This document shows positions 1,827 through 11,810 of a stretch of 20,406 nucleotides of DNA, in pieces. Location: IMG/VR virus record IMGVR_UViG_3300037882_000058, positions 1 through 20,406 of that record; one strand, 5' to 3'. Below the pieces are notes generated by a model, which saw only the letters and a program-made list of their open reading frames with translations, was not told the origin of the DNA and made no database searches. Source of the stretch: a virus. The stretch's first letter is position 1, and every line of letters begins with the position of its first letter. The position numbers and the translations under genes are program-made.

Positions 1827-3363
1827 AAAGAAAATACAATCGTGGCCGCCGCGTTGGATGACGCCGGTGGACGCAGCCGACCGCAAACGTGGAGACGGCC
1901 CACTTTATTCAGAATTTGCTGAAGCCGTTTGCAGAGTTACCAAAGATTCAGTAGCAGCACCAGCAGGCCAACTCATAGAGCTGCGAGAATGGCAGAAGGA
2001 ACTTCTCAACCACGCGCTTGCACGACGCAAAGACGGCCGCTTCAAACACAGAGTGGCCCTGATCGGCATGGCACGAAAGAACGGAAAATCTGCGCTCGCA
2101 GCGTCGGCAGGATTATCAGCCCTGACATTAGGTGGCAACGGTTCCGAAATTTATTCATGCGCAGCCGATCGAGATCAGGCACGCATCGTATTTGGCACAG
2201 CTCGTCGAATGGTTGAATTAGATCCAGAACTTTCTTCAATGTTCACGCTTTACAAAGACGCGATCGAATACAAAGACAAAGGATCCGTTTACCGCGCACT
2301 ATCAGCAGAGGCATACACCAAAGAAGGACTCAACCCTTCGCCGATTGTTATCTTTGACGAAGTACACGCACAGCCAAACCGAGAACTCTGGGATGTTATG
2401 TCGCTCGCCGGCGGAGCACGCGCCGATTCACTTCTTCTCGGCATAACAACAGCAGGAGTAAAGACACAAGCAAACGGCCAGGACAGCCTCTGCTATTCGC
2501 TTTATCAATACGGCCAGAAGCTCGTAAAGGGCGAACTTGTAGATCCGTCGTTCTTCTTTGCTTGGTGGGAACCGAAGCAACCAGAAGCAGATCACAGAGA
2601 CAAGCAGCTCTGGATAGAAGCAAACCCCGGATTCGGCGACATCGTCGATGCCGAGGATTTCGAGAGCGCCGTTCTTCGAACTCCAGAAGCCGAATTCAGA
2701 ACAAAGCGAATCAACACATTTGTATCAACAGCAACCGCCTGGCTTCCGACAGGGGCATGGGAAGCGTTGATCGATACAGACAGAACGCCAGAACAAGGCG
2801 AAAATGTGATTCTTGCATTTGATGGAGCGTTCTCAAACGACAGCACAGCGCTGATCGCCTGGCTTCTCGGCGGAGACAAACCGCACTTGATGGTTGTGGG
2901 AATTTGGGAACGACCAGATGATGCAGAACAGGGCTGGCACGTTCCAGTCGCAGAAGTAGAACAAACGATCATCGACACATTTAGAAACAGCAACTATCAA
3001 ACCAAAGAGATCGTCTTCGACCCGGCACGATGGCAGCGAACATTCATGGTGCTAGACGAACAAGGAATGCCAGTCGTTTCTTATCCAAACAGCGCAGAGC
3101 GAATGGTTCCAGCAACGCAGAAATTCTACGAAGCCGTAGTCAACCAAAGCTTTACGCACGACGGCGATGAAAGAATGGCAAGACACATTGCCAACTGCGT
3201 GACCAAACAATCATCACGCGGAGTGATGGTTGCAAAAGCAAGCTCGAAGCGCAAAGTCGACGCAGCCGTTGCAGCAATCTTCGGATACGACAGAGCAACG
3301 CAACCAGCAGAACCAAAGAAACCAGTCGCAAGATTCTTCTCACTTGATCTAGGAGCAAAATGA
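1819..3363 (+). CDS. terL: Terminase large subunit (packaging ATPase and nuclease)
   Basis: At 514 residues this is a full-length TerL. The ATPase half has a Walker A-like MARKNGKS at 84-91 and a Walker B IVIFDE at 176-181, followed by an ITTAG motif at 209-213 (coupling motif). The RNase H-like nuclease half carries acidic residues in FDGAFSND (D335), VFDPARW (D401) and KRKVDAA (D481), the usual metal-binding trio. It pumps DNA into the prohead and cuts the concatemer. The GTG at 1819 overlaps the small subunit stop by 8 bases and keeps a basic N-terminus; an in-frame ATG at 1858 (residue 14) is an alternative, but neither has a strong Shine-Dalgarno. The stop overlaps the next start as ATGA. 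Confidence 0.95.
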   Translation: MGKKKIQSWPPRWMTPVDAADRKRGDGPLYSEFAEAVCRVTKDSVAAPAGQLIELREWQKELLNHALARRKDGRFKHRVALIGMARKNGKSALAASAGLSALTLGGNGSEIYSCAADRDQARIVFGTARRMVELDPELSSMFTLYKDAIEYKDKGSVYRALSAEAYTKEGLNPSPIVIFDEVHAQPNRELWDVMSLAGGARADSLLLGITTAGVKTQANGQDSLCYSLYQYGQKLVKGELVDPSFFFAWWEPKQPEADHRDKQLWIEANPGFGDIVDAEDFESAVLRTPEAEFRTKRINTFVSTATAWLPTGAWEALIDTDRTPEQGENVILAFDGAFSNDSTALIAWLLGGDKPHLMVVGIWERPDDAEQGWHVPVAEVEQTIIDTFRNSNYQTKEIVFDPARWQRTFMVLDEQGMPVVSYPNSAERMVPATQKFYEAVVNQSFTHDGDERMARHIANCVTKQSSRGVMVAKASSKRKVDAAVAAIFGYDRATQPAEPKKPVARFFSLDLGAK

Positions 3364-3500
3364 AAAAAATAGACTTCTCACTGATCGCAGAAGTGGTAGG
3401 CGTTGCGTGCGCAACAGCAGGACTGGCGATGCTTTCACTTCCGGTGGCATTGATTGCACTAGGATCTTTCTTAATTTGGATCACAGAAAAGGCTAACTAA
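3360..3500 (+). CDS. 46-residue membrane peptide between terminase and portal
   Basis: An ATG at 3360 overlaps the terminase stop and is preceded by AGGAG with a 4-base spacer, among the best ribosome-binding sites in the window. The frame runs to TAA at 3498-3500, which itself overlaps the portal ATG. The peptide begins MKKIDF and then has about 34 mostly hydrophobic residues (roughly 7-41), enough for one long or two short membrane segments, ending ITEKAN. I do not recognise a family. Small membrane peptides at this place are seen in some phages and their role is unknown; toxicity control, a minor holin-like activity or simple coupling of portal translation are all possible. The overlaps at both ends and the good ribosome-binding site support it being real. 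Confidence 0.7.
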   Translation: MKKIDFSLIAEVVGVACATAGLAMLSLPVALIALGSFLIWITEKAN

Positions 3501-5161
3501 TGAGTCTATCAAAGCGACTACGACAAGCAGGCGAGAAGCGCACCAACGACAGCCAATGGGTGGAGCCGCTTATTCCAGGACGCCCTGCGTACATGGCACC
3601 ATCCGGAATCGAAGTTACAGCAGATTCTGCGATTCGTATGTCAACAGTTTATGCCTGCGTGCGATTACTCGGCGATACGATTTCATCATTGCCACTAGGC
3701 GCATACGTTCGACGCGGCAGAAACCGCATCTCATACATTTCAGCATTCGGTGAACAGCCAGAATGGATCAACAAGCCAAACCCAGAAGCAACACGCCTGG
3801 AGTTCTTCGAGCAAGTTATTTCATCGCTTAACATTCATGGCAACGCTTTCATTTTAACCGTTCGCGACGACATGGACGAAGTAAGAGAGCTCTACTGCGT
3901 TCACCCGGAAGATATTCGAATCGAGCGACCAGGGCCAGGCGAACCGATCATCTACAAGATGCGCGATTCAGTAGGAGCCTATTCTCGAATTTTGACCAGC
4001 AAGGAAATGCTTCACATTCCGATGTTTCGCCTGCCTGGATCTCTTTACGGATTAGGCCCAATCGCAGCTGCGCGACTTACGATCGGTGCAGCGATGGCAG
4101 CAGACACATACGCAGCCGCATACTTCGGCAACGCGGCAAATCCAGGCGGAGTAATCGAAGTGCCAAACGAGCTCACAGAAGAGCAGGCAAGCGACATCGG
4201 CCGCGATTGGAACATCACACACACAGGCCCATACAGAGCCGGCAAGATTGGCATCCTTTCAGGCGGCGCAACATTCAGACCGCTGACACTTAACGCACAA
4301 GATGCACAGCTGCTAGAAGCCAGAAGATTCAACGTCGAAGATATTGCCCGATTGTTCCGAGTTCCGATCAGTTTATTAGGACACCCGGTCGCAGGATCGA
4401 TGTCATTCGCCAGCGTTGAAGCGCAAAACCTTTCATTTGTTCAGCACAGCCTGCGCCCATTATTGGAACGCTTAGAGCAAGCACTTTCAGGATTGCTGCC
4501 AGAGCCAGAAGGATTCATCAAGTTCAACCTTGACGCACTTCTACGAGGAACCACCCTGGAGCGCTTCGACGCTTACACAAAGGGCCTCCGTGAAGGTTTC
4601 CTATCACTTAACGACGTGCGATCCGTTGAAGATTTGGCACCGCTTGGCGAAGCCGGAGATCAGTACCGAGTGCCACTACAAAACATCGACGCAGCAGACG
4701 CACGCGATGTAGGACTCAAGCTACGAGCAGAGATCGCATCATCACTGATCCAGGTTGGATTTGATCCAAAGGCCGTAACAGAAGCGGTCGGATTACCAGA
4801 GATGGCGCACACAGGCCTCCCATCTACGCAGCTGCAACAGATTTCAGCAATTGATCCAGCAGACCCACAAAGCGTCTACGAAGTCAATTCAAGAGAAGCA
4901 CGAAGCGAGCAACCGCACATGGTTCTACAAGTTCCAGAACCAACCGTCAATGTTGCAGCTCCGAATGTAACAATTGAACCGGCAATGGTTATGCTTGATT
5001 CACCACAAGTCAATGTTGAAGCGCCAAACGTAACGGTTGACGCACCGACAGTAAATGTGACAAACACAATCGAGCGCAAACGAGTTCGCAAGAAGATCAT
5101 TCGAGATGAAAACAATTTGATTGTTGAAGTCATTGAAGAATTTGTTGAAGGGGAAGAATAA
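3500..5161 (+). CDS. Portal protein, HK97 family, with a repeat-bearing C-terminal tail
   Basis: The 553-residue protein matches the HK97-type portal family: ADSAIRMSTVYACVRLLGD near residues 37-55, SLPLGAY, LHIPMFR with a following glycine-rich turn, and FNVEDIARLFRVPISLLG in the clip/stem half. The family forms the dodecameric ring at one capsid vertex through which DNA enters and to which the tail attaches. The conserved core ends near residue 400. The tail contains a valine/asparagine/proline repeat (residues 483-521) and then a charged segment KRVRKKIIRDENN ending in an acidic tail. Such an extension makes it longer than many HK97 portals. The ATG at 3500 overlaps the preceding stop (TAATG), and the 3' end does the same with the next gene. 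Confidence 0.95.
   Translation: MSLSKRLRQAGEKRTNDSQWVEPLIPGRPAYMAPSGIEVTADSAIRMSTVYACVRLLGDTISSLPLGAYVRRGRNRISYISAFGEQPEWINKPNPEATRLEFFEQVISSLNIHGNAFILTVRDDMDEVRELYCVHPEDIRIERPGPGEPIIYKMRDSVGAYSRILTSKEMLHIPMFRLPGSLYGLGPIAAARLTIGAAMAADTYAAAYFGNAANPGGVIEVPNELTEEQASDIGRDWNITHTGPYRAGKIGILSGGATFRPLTLNAQDAQLLEARRFNVEDIARLFRVPISLLGHPVAGSMSFASVEAQNLSFVQHSLRPLLERLEQALSGLLPEPEGFIKFNLDALLRGTTLERFDAYTKGLREGFLSLNDVRSVEDLAPLGEAGDQYRVPLQNIDAADARDVGLKLRAEIASSLIQVGFDPKAVTEAVGLPEMAHTGLPSTQLQQISAIDPADPQSVYEVNSREARSEQPHMVLQVPEPTVNVAAPNVTIEPAMVMLDSPQVNVEAPNVTVDAPTVNVTNTIERKRVRKKIIRDENNLIVEVIEEFVEGEE
4946..5062 (+). repeat. Short imperfect repeat in the portal tail (VNV-x-APNVT-like)
   Basis: Residues 483-492 read VNVAAPNVTI and 504-513 read VNVEAPNVTV. 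A partial third copy, VNVTNT, begins at 518. The spacing is 21 then 14 residues. The alternating valines suggest short beta strands, possibly a beta-solenoid-like or extended arm. Confidence 0.8.
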
Positions 5162-5545: not shown

Positions 5546-5926
5546 ATGGCTCAATTTGTTCTCGATACTTCCCAACTTAATGTCGACGTATTAGGACCGA
5601 TCACGTTCGCAACAGCGAGCGCTTCGTTAGGATCAGCAACAGCAACAGCAACGGCAGAGATTGACAACATCGTCGCAGCTAACGCACCACTTGGAGCATT
5701 GGTAGCACAGGCAAGCATTCCACAGCCAGGATCTCAAACCGCTGGTTCGGTGGGGCTTCCAAACTATGTACAGCCAAACATAATCACGCCAAACATAGAG
5801 ATAAAGCAAGCAAAGAAAATAAAGGCAAAGGCAAAGACACGACTAGGCGCGATGAAAATACAAGCAACATCAAGAATAGATTTCTCTGTGCTTAACGACG
5901 ACGCAGAACTTCTTCTACTGATCTAG
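5546..5926 (+). CDS. Hypothetical protein with three alanine/glycine repeats
   Basis: I do not recognise a family for this 126-residue protein. It is rich in alanine and threonine at the N-terminus, has a proline/asparagine stretch around residues 59-84, and a lysine-rich segment (KQAKKIKAKAK) at 87-97. A degenerate unit recurs three times: ASLGSATATATAEI (26-39), APLGALVAQASI (47-58) and TRLGAMKIQATSRI (98-111), each with Leu-Gly and an alternating small/hydrophobic pattern that suggests beta strands. It begins one base after the preceding stop and lacks a clear Shine-Dalgarno, so reinitiation is likely. A head or decoration-associated role is guessed from position only. Confidence 0.65.
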   Translation: MAQFVLDTSQLNVDVLGPITFATASASLGSATATATAEIDNIVAANAPLGALVAQASIPQPGSQTAGSVGLPNYVQPNIITPNIEIKQAKKIKAKAKTRLGAMKIQATSRIDFSVLNDDAELLLLI

Positions 5927-5933
5927 GACAAAA

Positions 5934-7448
5934 ATGCCATATTTGATAAGCGATAAGCAAAGTGACTGCGCAGGATGGGCAACCGTCAAAGAAGAAGCCG
6001 ACGGTTCATACACGACTCTTTCATGCCACGATACAAAGCAAGACGCAATCGATCAAATGGTTGCTATATCAATTGCAGAAGATATGGAACCAGGCGGAGA
6101 AGTAAACAGCAGGGCAGTAGATCTGAGTGCGCCAGCATTTATCCGACAGAACGCAGAACGCGGATTGAAATATCTGCAAGAAGGTTATGGCGGAGACGGC
6201 CTCACAGATGCAACAAAGCGTGAAGCACGCGAGATGGCAGCAGGAAGAATAAGCGAAAACAAAGTAAGAAAAATGGCGCCCTGGTTTGCTAGACACAAAG
6301 TCGATGGCCAGGCACCAAAGAACAGCAACCCATCCGATCCACAATATCCAGGCGCAGGATTAGTCGCCTGGCTGTTATGGGGCGGAGACGCAGACTTCAG
6401 CGACCGAGCACAAAACTGGGCGCAGAGAAAAATAGACGCACTCGATGCAGAAGAAGATTCAAGGAGCAAAATGAAAAAAATCGAACGCCGCACCTTCACG
6501 ATCAAGAACGTAGAAGCACGCCAGGCAGAAGATGGAACGATGCGCCTCTCTGGATACGCAGCCGTATTCAACGAAGATAGCGTGCCGCTTCCATTCCTTG
6601 AGAGAATCGCACCGGGTGCATTTAGAAAGACCCTGACAGAGACACCAGATGTGCGCCTCTTGATCAACCACGAAGGCCTACCTTTGGCAAGAACAAAGAA
6701 CGGAACACTTCGACTTAACGAAGATGAAACCGGCCTCTATATGGATGCAGATCTTCCAGACACGCAAGCAGCTCGCGACCTTTACACCCTGGTCGAGCGC
6801 GGCGACGTTGACCAGATGAGCTTTGCATTCAGAGTGATCCGCCAGAAATGGAGCGAGGATCGCAGCCGCCGAGTTTTAACAGAGCTCAGCCTTTCAGATG
6901 GCGACGTTTCAGTCGTCACATATCCGGCATATCCAACGACAAGCGTTGAAGCACGCGAAGCACTAAGAAGCGCAATAGATGCAATCAAGGAAGGCCGTGA
7001 AGTTACCGGCGAATCTTTAATCATCCTAAAAACAATTTTCGAGGATCTCAGCGAAGGTCATGAATATATTATGCGTGCGGTTGAAATGATGGCGATGCTT
7101 ACAGGCTCAGAAGAAGAAATTGAAGAACAATCACGTGAAAACGTTGGCGACTTTGTCGAATGGGATTCAAGCGGTGGAACTGCAAAAGGCCGCATTGAAC
7201 ACATTATGGAAGAAGGCGTTCTTGGTATTCCAGGAACAGAATTTAGCATTACAGCTGAAGAGGGCGATCCTGCGGTTTTGATTCGAGTATATGAAGAATT
7301 TCGCGATGGATACCGACCAACAGAAACCTTAGTCGGTCACAAAATGTCTGAACTTCGTTATATTGAACCACTACCTGAAGCAACCGAAGAAGAAGGTCGC
7401 AAGATTTCTCTTCGACTTGCGAAAGCAATCGTAAATAATACAAAATAG
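5934..7448 (+). CDS. Multi-domain prohead (head maturation) protease, S78 family
   Basis: This 504-residue protein has at least three modules. Residues 1-55 form a small domain with a cysteine pair (C12, C31) and CHDTKQDAIDQMVAISIAED; 62-172 is a helical module containing REAREMAAGRISENKVRKMAPWFARH and PGAGLVAWLLWGG, known to me as an accessory segment of actinophage proteases. Residues about 183-345 are the S78 protease that trims capsid subunits during head assembly: PGAF at 227-230, LLINHEG with H246, and QMSFAF with S296, aligned with the family's His and Ser; D324 in GDVSVVTYPA may be the acidic member. Residues about 404-479 are an added small beta domain resembling phage HVA1/Tudor-like folds (VGDFVEWDSSGGTAKGRIEHI, TLVGHKMSELR). 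An internal in-frame start may also give a 325-residue form. Confidence 0.9.
   Translation: MPYLISDKQSDCAGWATVKEEADGSYTTLSCHDTKQDAIDQMVAISIAEDMEPGGEVNSRAVDLSAPAFIRQNAERGLKYLQEGYGGDGLTDATKREAREMAAGRISENKVRKMAPWFARHKVDGQAPKNSNPSDPQYPGAGLVAWLLWGGDADFSDRAQNWAQRKIDALDAEEDSRSKMKKIERRTFTIKNVEARQAEDGTMRLSGYAAVFNEDSVPLPFLERIAPGAFRKTLTETPDVRLLINHEGLPLARTKNGTLRLNEDETGLYMDADLPDTQAARDLYTLVERGDVDQMSFAFRVIRQKWSEDRSRRVLTELSLSDGDVSVVTYPAYPTTSVEAREALRSAIDAIKEGREVTGESLIILKTIFEDLSEGHEYIMRAVEMMAMLTGSEEEIEEQSRENVGDFVEWDSSGGTAKGRIEHIMEEGVLGIPGTEFSITAEEGDPAVLIRVYEEFRDGYRPTETLVGHKMSELRYIEPLPEATEEEGRKISLRLAKAIVNNTK
6462..6473 (+). promoter_or_regulatory. Internal ribosome-binding site and in-frame ATG inside the protease gene
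   Basis: AGGAG (6462-6466), spacer CAAA, then ATG at 6471-6473, in frame as Met180 of the protease. The 20 bases AGGAGCAAAATGAAAAAAAT are identical to those starting the membrane peptide gene at 3351-3370. Starting here would give a 325-residue protein beginning exactly at the S78 catalytic module, leaving out the two N-terminal modules. Confidence 0.65.
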
Positions 7449-7563: not shown

Positions 7564-8913
7564 ATGTCAAAGTCTTTTCTTGACAAGTTGATCGAGCGCC
7601 GTGATGCAGTTAAGGCAGAAATGGATGCAGTTCTAGAAGCAGTAGCTTCAGAAGACCGCACCGACCTAACAGCAGATGAAACAACAAAGGTCGATACCCT
7701 TGTTGAAGAATCACGAACACTCGATTCAAAGATTGAAAAAATGAAGGCACAGGCAGATGCAGATGCGAAAGCAAACGAAATCCGCTCAGCAGTAGCCGAC
7801 GTAGCAATGCCAAAAGTAGGCGGAACAACAGTCACACGCGAAGAGCGTACATACTCAGCAAACTCAACATCATCATTCGTGAAGGATGCATTCAATGCAC
7901 AGTTCTCAAATGACTATGCAGCAAACGAGCGCCTTGCACGCCACATGCGTGAAGAGTCAATCGAGCGTCGCGATGTTGGAACACCACAGTTTGACGGTCT
8001 TGTAATTCCACAATACCTAGTCGAATTAGCAGCTCCATTAGCACGCGCAGGTCGCCCATTCGCAGACTTCGCAACAAACAAGATGGCACTTCCACCAAGT
8101 GGAATGACGCTGAACATTTCTCGCATGACGACAGGAAGTTCAACGGCCGTACAGGTTACACAGAACGATGCAGTCTCAGAGACAGACATCGACGACACAC
8201 TACTTACAGTAAATGTTCGTACGATTGCCGGACAGCAAGATGTATCACGTCAGGCACTAGAGCGCGGAACAGGCATCGATACATTCGTAATCGCTGACTT
8301 GATCAAGTCATGGCACACAACACTTGATTCACAGATCCTGAACGGTGCAGGCACAGCCGGCACAATCAAGGGCCTTCGTGCATCAGGCGGAAACGCAATC
8401 ACATTCACATCGACAGCACCAACAGTCGGATTGCTTTATCCAAAGCTTGCTGATGCGATTGCACAGATTCAGACAAACGCATTCGTTTCACCAACACACT
8501 GGGTAGTTCACCCACGTCGTCTAGCCTTCTTGCTTGCAGCAGTTGACAGCACAAACCGTCCACTTGTTGTACCAGCAGCAAACGGCGCGATGAACGCAGT
8601 AGGCGTTGGCGGAGCACCAACATACGGAAACTCCGGATACCAGATGCTCGGACTTCCAATCATCACCGATGCAAACATCGGAACAACATACGGAACAACA
8701 ACAAACCAGGATGAAATCTATTGCGTATTAGCAAACGAATCTCATCTTTGGGAGCAACCAGGTTCACCTTTCGCACTTCGCTTCGATGCAACAGGCGCAG
8801 GAAACCTAACAATCAAGTCTGTCGTTTACGGCTACGCCGCATACACAGCAGAGCGCTACCCACTTGCAGCCTCAATCATTTCAGGCACAGGTCTAAGCGC
8901 ACCAACCTTCTAA
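7564..8913 (+). CDS. Major capsid protein, HK97 fold
   Basis: The 449-residue protein has a charged, helical N-terminal segment (about 1-80, many Glu/Lys/Ala), which in HK97-type capsids acts as a built-in scaffold (delta domain) and is removed by the prohead protease. The capsid domain follows from about residue 135: FDGLVIPQYLVELA, MTTGSSTAVQVTQNDAVSETD, a long helix around LIKSWHTTLDSQILNG, THWVVHPRRLAFLLA, and a C-terminal VVYGYAAYTAERYPLAA. It forms the icosahedral shell. The ribosome-binding site AAGGAG is strong. Arginine is encoded mostly by CGC and CGT, while terminase and portal use many CGA and AGA codons, which fits selection for very high expression. Flanking hairpins on both sides suggest separately tuned transcript levels. 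No separate scaffold gene is seen. Confidence 0.95.
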   Translation: MSKSFLDKLIERRDAVKAEMDAVLEAVASEDRTDLTADETTKVDTLVEESRTLDSKIEKMKAQADADAKANEIRSAVADVAMPKVGGTTVTREERTYSANSTSSFVKDAFNAQFSNDYAANERLARHMREESIERRDVGTPQFDGLVIPQYLVELAAPLARAGRPFADFATNKMALPPSGMTLNISRMTTGSSTAVQVTQNDAVSETDIDDTLLTVNVRTIAGQQDVSRQALERGTGIDTFVIADLIKSWHTTLDSQILNGAGTAGTIKGLRASGGNAITFTSTAPTVGLLYPKLADAIAQIQTNAFVSPTHWVVHPRRLAFLLAAVDSTNRPLVVPAANGAMNAVGVGGAPTYGNSGYQMLGLPIITDANIGTTYGTTTNQDEIYCVLANESHLWEQPGSPFALRFDATGAGNLTIKSVVYGYAAYTAERYPLAASIISGTGLSAPTF

Positions 8914-10789: not shown

Positions 10790-10990
10790 ATGTCATACAC
10801 GATCATCTCAAGCAAAACCGTCTGCGGAAAAACCAAAGGCGACACGCTAACAAATGAAGAATTGCAAGATGCAGGAGTCAGCGCAGAAACTCTGATCGCT
10901 GGAAACCACATCAAAGCAACAGCAACAAACACAGAAACAAAAGTAGTACAATCCATCAAACAAGAAACCAAAGAAGGAGCGACCGCATAA
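10790..10990 (+). CDS. Small protein of unknown function before the tail tube genes
   Basis: A 66-residue protein starting MSYTIISSKTVCGKTKGDTLTNEELQDAGVSAETLIAGNHIKA. The shape (short beta strand, Gly-Asp-Thr-hydrophobic turn, an acidic helix, then 'LI-x-x-x-H-hydrophobic') resembles small phage neck-region proteins with a KGDTV(T/S)xEEL pattern, but I know no function. The C-terminus is polar and lysine-rich. TAAGGAG lies 5 bases upstream of the ATG, and the stop overlaps the next ATG (TAATG), so it is coupled with the tail tube gene. Confidence 0.7.
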   Translation: MSYTIISSKTVCGKTKGDTLTNEELQDAGVSAETLIAGNHIKATATNTETKVVQSIKQETKEGATA

Positions 10991-11400
10991 TGCCACGCTT
11001 AGTCCTAACTAACGCATTCATATCCGTCGGTGGAGTGGATCTGAGCGATTTGGTCGCTTCAGTAACACTTAACTCGACATTCGACGTCGTCGAAACAACA
11101 GCATTCTCTTCCACAGCAGCTAAGACTCGCGTGGCAGGATTGGCAGACAACTCAATCTCACTAGAATTTCATCAAGACTACGCAACAGGCGAAGTCGAAC
11201 AAACAATTTATCCATTACTAGGAACATCGGCGGCAGTTATTGTCAAGCCAAACGGTGCAACAACAAGCGCATTCAATCCGTCATACACATGCAACGCAAT
11301 TATTTCAGAATGGACTGCGCTCAACGGAACCGTTGGTGAATTAGCAACAGCAAGCGTGACATGGCCAGTAACCGGAGCAATCACTAAGGCGGTCGTGTAA
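10990..11400 (+). CDS. Major tail tube protein, copy 1
   Basis: The 136-residue protein has the beta-rich pattern of actinophage tail tube subunits: DLSDLVASVTLNSTFDVVETTAFSSTAAKTRVAGLADNSISLEF, a helix-like HQDYATGEVEQTIYPLLGT, and FNPSYTCNAIISEWTALNGTVGELATASVTWPVTGAI. Tail tube subunits stack as hexameric rings around the tape measure protein and form the DNA channel. It is about 72% identical by hand alignment to the gene immediately downstream, from which it is separated only by a TAATG overlap. Copy 1 has one extra residue near position 43, and differs most at 10-22 and 80-102, probably surface loops. Which copy is the main tube protein cannot be told from sequence. Confidence 0.85.
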   Translation: MPRLVLTNAFISVGGVDLSDLVASVTLNSTFDVVETTAFSSTAAKTRVAGLADNSISLEFHQDYATGEVEQTIYPLLGTSAAVIVKPNGATTSAFNPSYTCNAIISEWTALNGTVGELATASVTWPVTGAITKAVV

Positions 11401-11810
11401 TGGCAAGAATCGTTCTAACAAATGCATATGTTGTATTCGGTACAACTGATCTGAGCGACCATATCGCGTCAGTCACATTGAACTCGACATTCGACATCGT
11501 CGAAACAACCGCGTTCGGAAACACAGCAAAGACACGTGTGGCTGGATTGGCAGACAACTCTGTAAGTTTCGAGTTCCACCAGGACTACGCAACAAGCAGC
11601 GTCGAACAAACAATCTACCCATTACTCGGAACAGCCGTAACAGTTTCAGTAAAGCCAGTCAATACAACAACAAGCACAGTGAATCCGAATTACGCATTCT
11701 CTGCGCTAATTTCAGAATGGACTCCGCTAAACGGAACCGTCGGTGAATTAGCAACGGCATCGGTTACATGGCCGATCAGCGGAGCAATTACAAAAACAAC
11801 ATCAGCATAA
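11400..11810 (+). CDS. Major tail tube protein, copy 2 (tandem paralogue)
   Basis: This 136-residue protein aligns end to end with the preceding one, with about 98 identical positions and a single one-residue gap. Invariant blocks include ASVTLNSTFD, AKTRVAGLADNS, FHQDYAT, VEQTIYPLLGT and LNGTVGELATASVTWP. Both reading frames are intact and each starts MxRxVLTNA, so both are probably made. The tube may contain two subunit types, or one copy may be a minor ring or decoration. It starts at an ATG overlapping copy 1's stop; the next gene follows after 19 bases with a strong AAGGGGG ribosome-binding site. Confidence 0.85.
   Translation: MARIVLTNAYVVFGTTDLSDHIASVTLNSTFDIVETTAFGNTAKTRVAGLADNSVSFEFHQDYATSSVEQTIYPLLGTAVTVSVKPVNTTTSTVNPNYAFSALISEWTPLNGTVGELATASVTWPISGAITKTTSA

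Follow-up and report, generated by a model that had tools for sequence, protein, structure and literature searches.

A conserved internal start site in a phage prohead protease gene that probably yields a second protease lacking the N-terminal modules

Introduction

The prohead protease gene of the virus studied here raises the question of whether one gene specifies one protease or two. The window, which is the whole stretch of DNA that was analysed (20,406 nucleotides, a 20.4 kb virus record), contains an open reading frame of 504 codons in which a second potential translation start lies at the border of the catalytic domain. An earlier note on this DNA, made from the sequence of the window, proposed that this nested start gives rise to a short protease in addition to the long one, or that the gene is a former two-gene pair that became fused. 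We have compared the window with its relatives at the levels of protein, codon and gene order.

Results

The full-length protease and its N-terminal modules

The protease gene is flanked by the genes of the portal (3500-5161) and of an HK97-fold major capsid protein (7564-8913). A Pfam search of the 504-residue product places PF04586 at residues 192-342 with an E value of 3e-43 and a score of 148.3 bits, the curated cut-off being 21, whereas residues 1-179 have no Pfam match. In PHROGs, residues 1-63 match the start of phrog_80 (head maturation protease) and residues 60-165 match phrog_2859, a family of unknown function. In this report, residues 1-60 are referred to as module A and residues 61-175 as module B. 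His246 and Ser296 are invariant among 84 representatives and are the presumed catalytic residues. The PF04586 score, the head-protease fold, the invariant His and Ser and the position of the gene between portal and capsid identify the product as an S78 prohead protease. The features of the locus are listed in Table 1.

Table 1. Positions of the protease gene, its two starts and its domains in the window
Feature	Position	Strand	Remark
Prohead protease ORF in full length (504 aa), with modules A and B, the S78 protease and a TUDOR-like C-terminal part	5934..7448	+	
Weaker start of the full-length form, AGGA-CAAAA-ATG	5925..5936	+	SD pairing -3.9; median -4.9 across 71 relatives
Module A, residues 1-60 (MPYLISDKQSDC...SCH...)	5934..6113	+	Match to start of phrog_80
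Module B, residues 61-175, helical	6114..6458	+	phrog_2859 match; some relatives lack B or have B minus A
Internal Shine-Dalgarno AAGGAG in codons 176-178 (TCA AGG AGC)	6461..6466	+	Codon 177 is AGG in all 84 non-redundant relatives
Internal start codon ATG, Met180	6471..6473	+	GTG is the sole replacement in relatives
Predicted short product, 325 aa: complete S78 protease and C-terminal part	6471..7448	+	
Peptidase_S78 domain (PF04586), residues 192-342	6507..6959	+	His246 and Ser296 invariant; fold match T4 gp21
Hva1_TUDOR-like domain, residues 405-451	7146..7286	+	
Start site of small gene 3360-3500	3351..3370	+	20 bases equal to 6462-6481

For the full protein, AlphaFold gives a model of moderate overall quality (mean pLDDT 73.5, pTM 0.35); its confidence falls below 50 at the linker of residues 176-180, and the first strand of the S78 fold begins at residue 184. 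The best match among solved folds is T4 gp21 (5jbl, E 5e-4), and a sequence search returned no solved relatives. The N-terminal part is predicted confidently when it is modelled alone (87.4). Its fold has no match in the PDB with an E value below 0.3; in a viral structure library, it matches models that are annotated as prohead proteases, XkdF-like proteins, portals and small uncharacterised proteins of approximately 175-180 residues. Modules A and B together are also found on other head proteins, including portal, minor head and other prohead-protease proteins, which leads us to guess that they are docking domains for head assembly. In the tail-gene position of the window, the two adjacent 136-residue genes at 10990-11400 and 11400-11810 are clear tandem paralogues (VLTNA...DLSD..ASVTLNSTFD.VETTAF).

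The internal start site in the window

AGGAG at 6462-6466 is followed by the spacer CAAA (6467-6470) and by an ATG that is codon 180 of the reading frame, approximately 12 residues ahead of the catalytic fold as defined by Pfam. A Shine-Dalgarno (SD) sequence and a start codon are therefore present in frame at a domain border, and the coordinates, frame and product lengths of 504 and 325 residues given in the earlier note are all correct. The calculated SD pairing is -7.5 kcal/mol for the internal site versus -3.9 kcal/mol for the full-length start at 5934, and it is the third strongest among 193 in-frame internal ATG, GTG and TTG codons of the scanned ORFs. Two copies of the motif AGGAGNNNNATG are present in the window (0.45 expected), a count of two being reached in 11 of 100 shuffles; taken alone, the motif in the window is within chance and is not significant. 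Comparison with the relatives, which is described below, places the internal site far beyond chance.

The 20 bases shared with the start of the small gene at 3360, to which the earlier note drew attention, are indeed identical at all 20 positions. The start site of the 3360 gene has other letters in relatives (TTTAGGAGCGCAATG, CTAAGGAGAGCAATG), and the two starts diverge. The identity consequently reflects two strong start sites of the same style rather than a duplicated piece, and an origin of the internal site by duplication from the 3360 gene is rejected.

Conservation among fused relatives

Relatives were collected in three scans of a viral collection for the clade of the window and in a fourth scan queried with the protease of Pontimonas phage phiPsal1. 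The comparison set consists of 84 fused members of the window clade with less than 95% nucleotide identity (mean pairwise identity 72%). The sequences bearing the site are all metagenomic, and the isolates compared either lack the site or possess a stand-alone protease.

AGGAG with an in-frame ATG or GTG is present in all 84 non-redundant fused relatives, as expected if the nested start gives products of 504 and 325 residues; a failure of fused relatives to keep AGGAG, which the earlier note had named as the observation to look for against its proposal, is not seen in the window clade. ATG follows at a distance of four bases in 79 sequences and GTG at the same distance in one, and in four others a CAA codon is inserted and GTG stands at seven bases. 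The CAA insertion with the adjoining GTG belongs to one lineage, and independent changes of the start codon are few in number.

Codon 177 is AGG in 84 of 84 sequences, a codon that accounts for 3.6% of the other Arg codons in the same genes and 2.3% of the Arg codons in the window. It is the only codon-invariant six-fold column, also after thinning to 53, 32, 18 or 13 representatives; among the 13 representatives that share less than 75% identity, it is the sole invariant six-fold codon of 47. At sites with identical residues in the 84 representatives, the same codon is used at a rate of 0.97 in codons 176-179 versus 0.48-0.52 elsewhere, and of 289 residue-conserved degenerate columns, nine, including 176, 177 and 179, are essentially single-codon. 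Immediately behind AGGAG, the sequences have C, T or A, and variation is also found in codons 181-183, the signal itself being spared. The SD sequence and the start are thus conserved at the nucleotide level beyond what the protein requires. Modules A and B exhibit 82% amino acid versus 76% nucleotide identity, which indicates that they evolve as protein and that the long form is translated too.

No supported RNA helix was detected at the junction with RNAalifold (energy -3.6, covariation +0.04). A second codon-level constraint (TGGGCGCA) is located at codon 163 (6420-6422), approximately 40 bases 5' of the internal SD and likewise with no supported RNA helix: Ala163 is encoded by GCG in 80 of 81 representatives, GCG accounting for approximately 11% of Ala codons. 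In one relative (L101, near 1885), a TAG is found two codons past the internal ATG (ATGACATAG); it would end both forms and would represent a sequencing error or a dead gene.

Stand-alone proteases and exchange of the upstream modules

The region upstream of the internal start is a mosaic that consists of no module, A, B, A and B, or A, Z and B. Module Z, a Cys-rich stretch of approximately 60 residues (CGNC...C...YYCNAW) between A and B, is present in L104, L112 and L082 (phiPsal1); its sequence recalls that of high-potential iron-sulphur proteins. In a tree built from the protease domain, the 55 rows of the window clade require at least 19 changes of architecture, a count that is approximate because the tree was made rapidly, contains many weak branches and does not distinguish gain from loss. 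The start is present in 55 of 55 rows with no losses, and stand-alone and fused forms are interleaved.

In close relatives without N-terminal modules, the same SD and start head a stand-alone protease directly behind the portal gene. AAGGAG-CAAA-ATG is located approximately 30 bases past the portal stop in L162 and in some 20 loci related to it. The open frame of L247 extends over just eight codons and contains no ATG, GTG or TTG other than the homologous GTG; L248 and L068/L069 resemble L247 but have another ATG 7 or 15 codons upstream. The independently annotated proteases of Rhizobium phage 16-3 (p004) and of ctekg1 begin with a Met1 that aligns to residue 180. These HK97-type S78 proteases (PF04586, phrog_80) belong to the same catalytic family as the protease of the window but have no N-terminal modules and one annotated start. 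The second start of the fused gene thus corresponds to the first codon of stand-alone S78 proteases, which indicates that the modules sit in frame ahead of an already complete gene that has retained its own start.

The modules were found as a separate intact gene beside the protease at none of 215 non-redundant loci. In ten contigs with a stand-alone protease, no sequence resembling A or B was found elsewhere (five of these contigs measure 29-37 kb, the contigs may be incomplete, and no positive control accompanied the search), and the phages without modules seem to have no A or B. A two-gene pair fused by the loss of a stop codon, the second origin considered in the earlier note, therefore finds no counterpart at these loci. 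The related expectation that the two parts occur as separate units is borne out in part: proteases without modules and with the same start exist in close relatives, and A and B together occur on other head proteins and in proteins of approximately 175-180 residues, but at no locus do the modules form a separate gene next to the protease. Prophage relatives in genome contigs are distant (at most 50% identity) and offer no useful junctions.

In one contig (L020, near 3918-4001), a deletion with short flanking homology lies within module B, so that A and B are out of frame with the protease and 34 open codons precede the internal start. This locus was considered as a natural breaker of the fusion and was set aside, the deletion being present in one contig only.

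The phiPsal1 sister clade

The protease of phiPsal1 (AUV61415.1) resembles that of the window in being a fusion of A, the Cys-rich Z, B and S78, with approximately 42% identity. It differs in having no AGGAG-ATG at the junction, where at most a weak GAGGGCAGA-GTG is found, and no TUDOR-like part that aligns. Most members of this clade, which are fused as well, have a junction without a start (GRAKGQ and similar), which indicates that the internal start is lineage-specific and that the short form is not required by every fused protease. The junction in this clade is a picture of an unconstrained junction. GGAG with GTG is present at the junction in 4 of 36 tree rows; in L170, L172, L173 and L230, it may be a retained or re-evolved internal start.

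Discussion

Alternative explanations of the conserved site

The conserved site could be a relic or spare start, that is, the old start of the stand-alone gene, which permits some initiation and gives a short product with no role of its own; it would persist through the frequent gain and loss of modules, the stand-alone forms needing the start. The interleaving of stand-alone forms with the same start among the fused forms on the tree is consistent with this explanation. However, such a start is expected to drift, as in the phiPsal1 clade, whereas nearly all of the 84 divergent fused sequences retain the rare AGG and, ahead of it, the A of TCA while neighbouring synonymous sites are free, and we consider a relic unlikely. 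The frequent change of modules upstream of the junction also raises the question of whether the stretch marks the point of exchange of the N-terminal modules and is preserved for the sake of homology rather than translation. In that case, it would be difficult to explain why the 12-15 or so frozen bases coincide with SD, spacer and start while flanking synonymous sites vary, and why the start codon varies between ATG and GTG only. The border between A and B is a labile module border too, yet it displays no codon freeze: the residue Arg60 at this border is conserved, and its commonest codon reaches just 23%. Module swapping alone therefore freezes no codons, which counts against a mere recombination boundary and makes this explanation very improbable.

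The presence of AGGAG and a rare AGG at a linker, followed in the window by ATGAAAAAAAT, might instead suggest that the ribosome is slowed for folding or that the A-run promotes slippage. A pause needs no start codon at a fixed spacing, however, and neither the restriction to ATG and GTG nor the use of the site as the sole start in L247 is explained in this way; we rate a pause or frameshift signal a shade lower again. Frameshifting at the A-run is rejected, since the run is not conserved (AAA and AAG are mixed, and ACA, GCA or AGC codons are inserted). It could also be argued that S-R-S/R-K is kept purely as a peptide, as a linker or a self-cleavage site, given that Ser176, Arg177 and Lys179 are nearly invariant residues. 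Selection on residues cannot fix AGG among six Arg codons or TCA among six Ser codons, which leaves this explanation with almost no probability.

A proposed pair of nested proteases

In our judgement, AAGGAG-CAAA-ATG is very probably a functional internal start that yields a 325-residue protease beside the 504-residue one. The site is kept in every fused relative of the same branch that was compared, which suggests that the long and the short protease are probably both made. The conservation at the nucleotide level and the presence of this site where stand-alone relatives begin are read directly from the alignments, and initiation at 6471, the two products and their roles are what we infer from them. 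The mRNA would be read from two places. Initiation at the weak start at 5934, perhaps linked to the end of the gene before it, would give the protease with modules A and B in front. Independent initiation at the stronger start at 6471 would give a protease with the whole S78 fold and the C-terminal part but no modules. The most likely function of the modules would be to tether the enzyme to the head during assembly, in which case the ratio of docked to free protease would be set by the two starts.

A broader reading, which is conceivable and which we advance tentatively, is that of a translational switch in head maturation: in a widespread phage lineage, two nested starts would supply a fixed mix of module-bearing and bare protease, the bare form remaining constant while the docking modules are freely exchanged, and the ratio might control the tethering of the protease to the portal or shell and the time of its activation. 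The number of proteases per prohead and the manner in which they are held there are poorly understood, and a second start that would deliver the enzyme in both versions, with modules and bare, makes them accessible to simple manipulation, one silent change being sufficient to remove one form. In this phage group, the usual annotation, with a single product of 504 residues, probably overlooks a protein, and the locus is a clear case of domain shuffling upstream of a fixed start.

Nested starts are known in head-assembly protease genes of the lambda C/Nu3 type and in herpesvirus UL26/UL26.5, where a second in-frame start gives a C-terminal product that is a scaffold without protease. The window differs from the lambda type in that the product of the start at 6471 holds the whole S78 domain, and, judging by the capsid gene, the N-terminal part of the capsid protein appears to serve as the scaffold here, as it does in HK97. 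In the openly accessible literature, no earlier account was found of an S78 protease that is itself the product of a nested start.

Internal in-frame starts are also present in the phage endolysins CTP1L, CD27L and CS74L (PMC4777826) and in LysIME-EF1, in which AAGGAGA is found in all 36 relatives (PMC7098653). Silent changes in the SD of such genes lower the amount of short product, as demonstrated experimentally (PMC4777826, PMC7098653), whereas the internal start of the window is supported by comparison. The arrangement is otherwise alike: a single gene carries a conserved in-frame internal SD with ATG or GTG at an inter-domain linker, and a C-terminal product accompanies the full protein. 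The short product of the endolysins is a binding domain without the enzyme, whereas the short product predicted for the window is the complete enzyme without its accessory modules.
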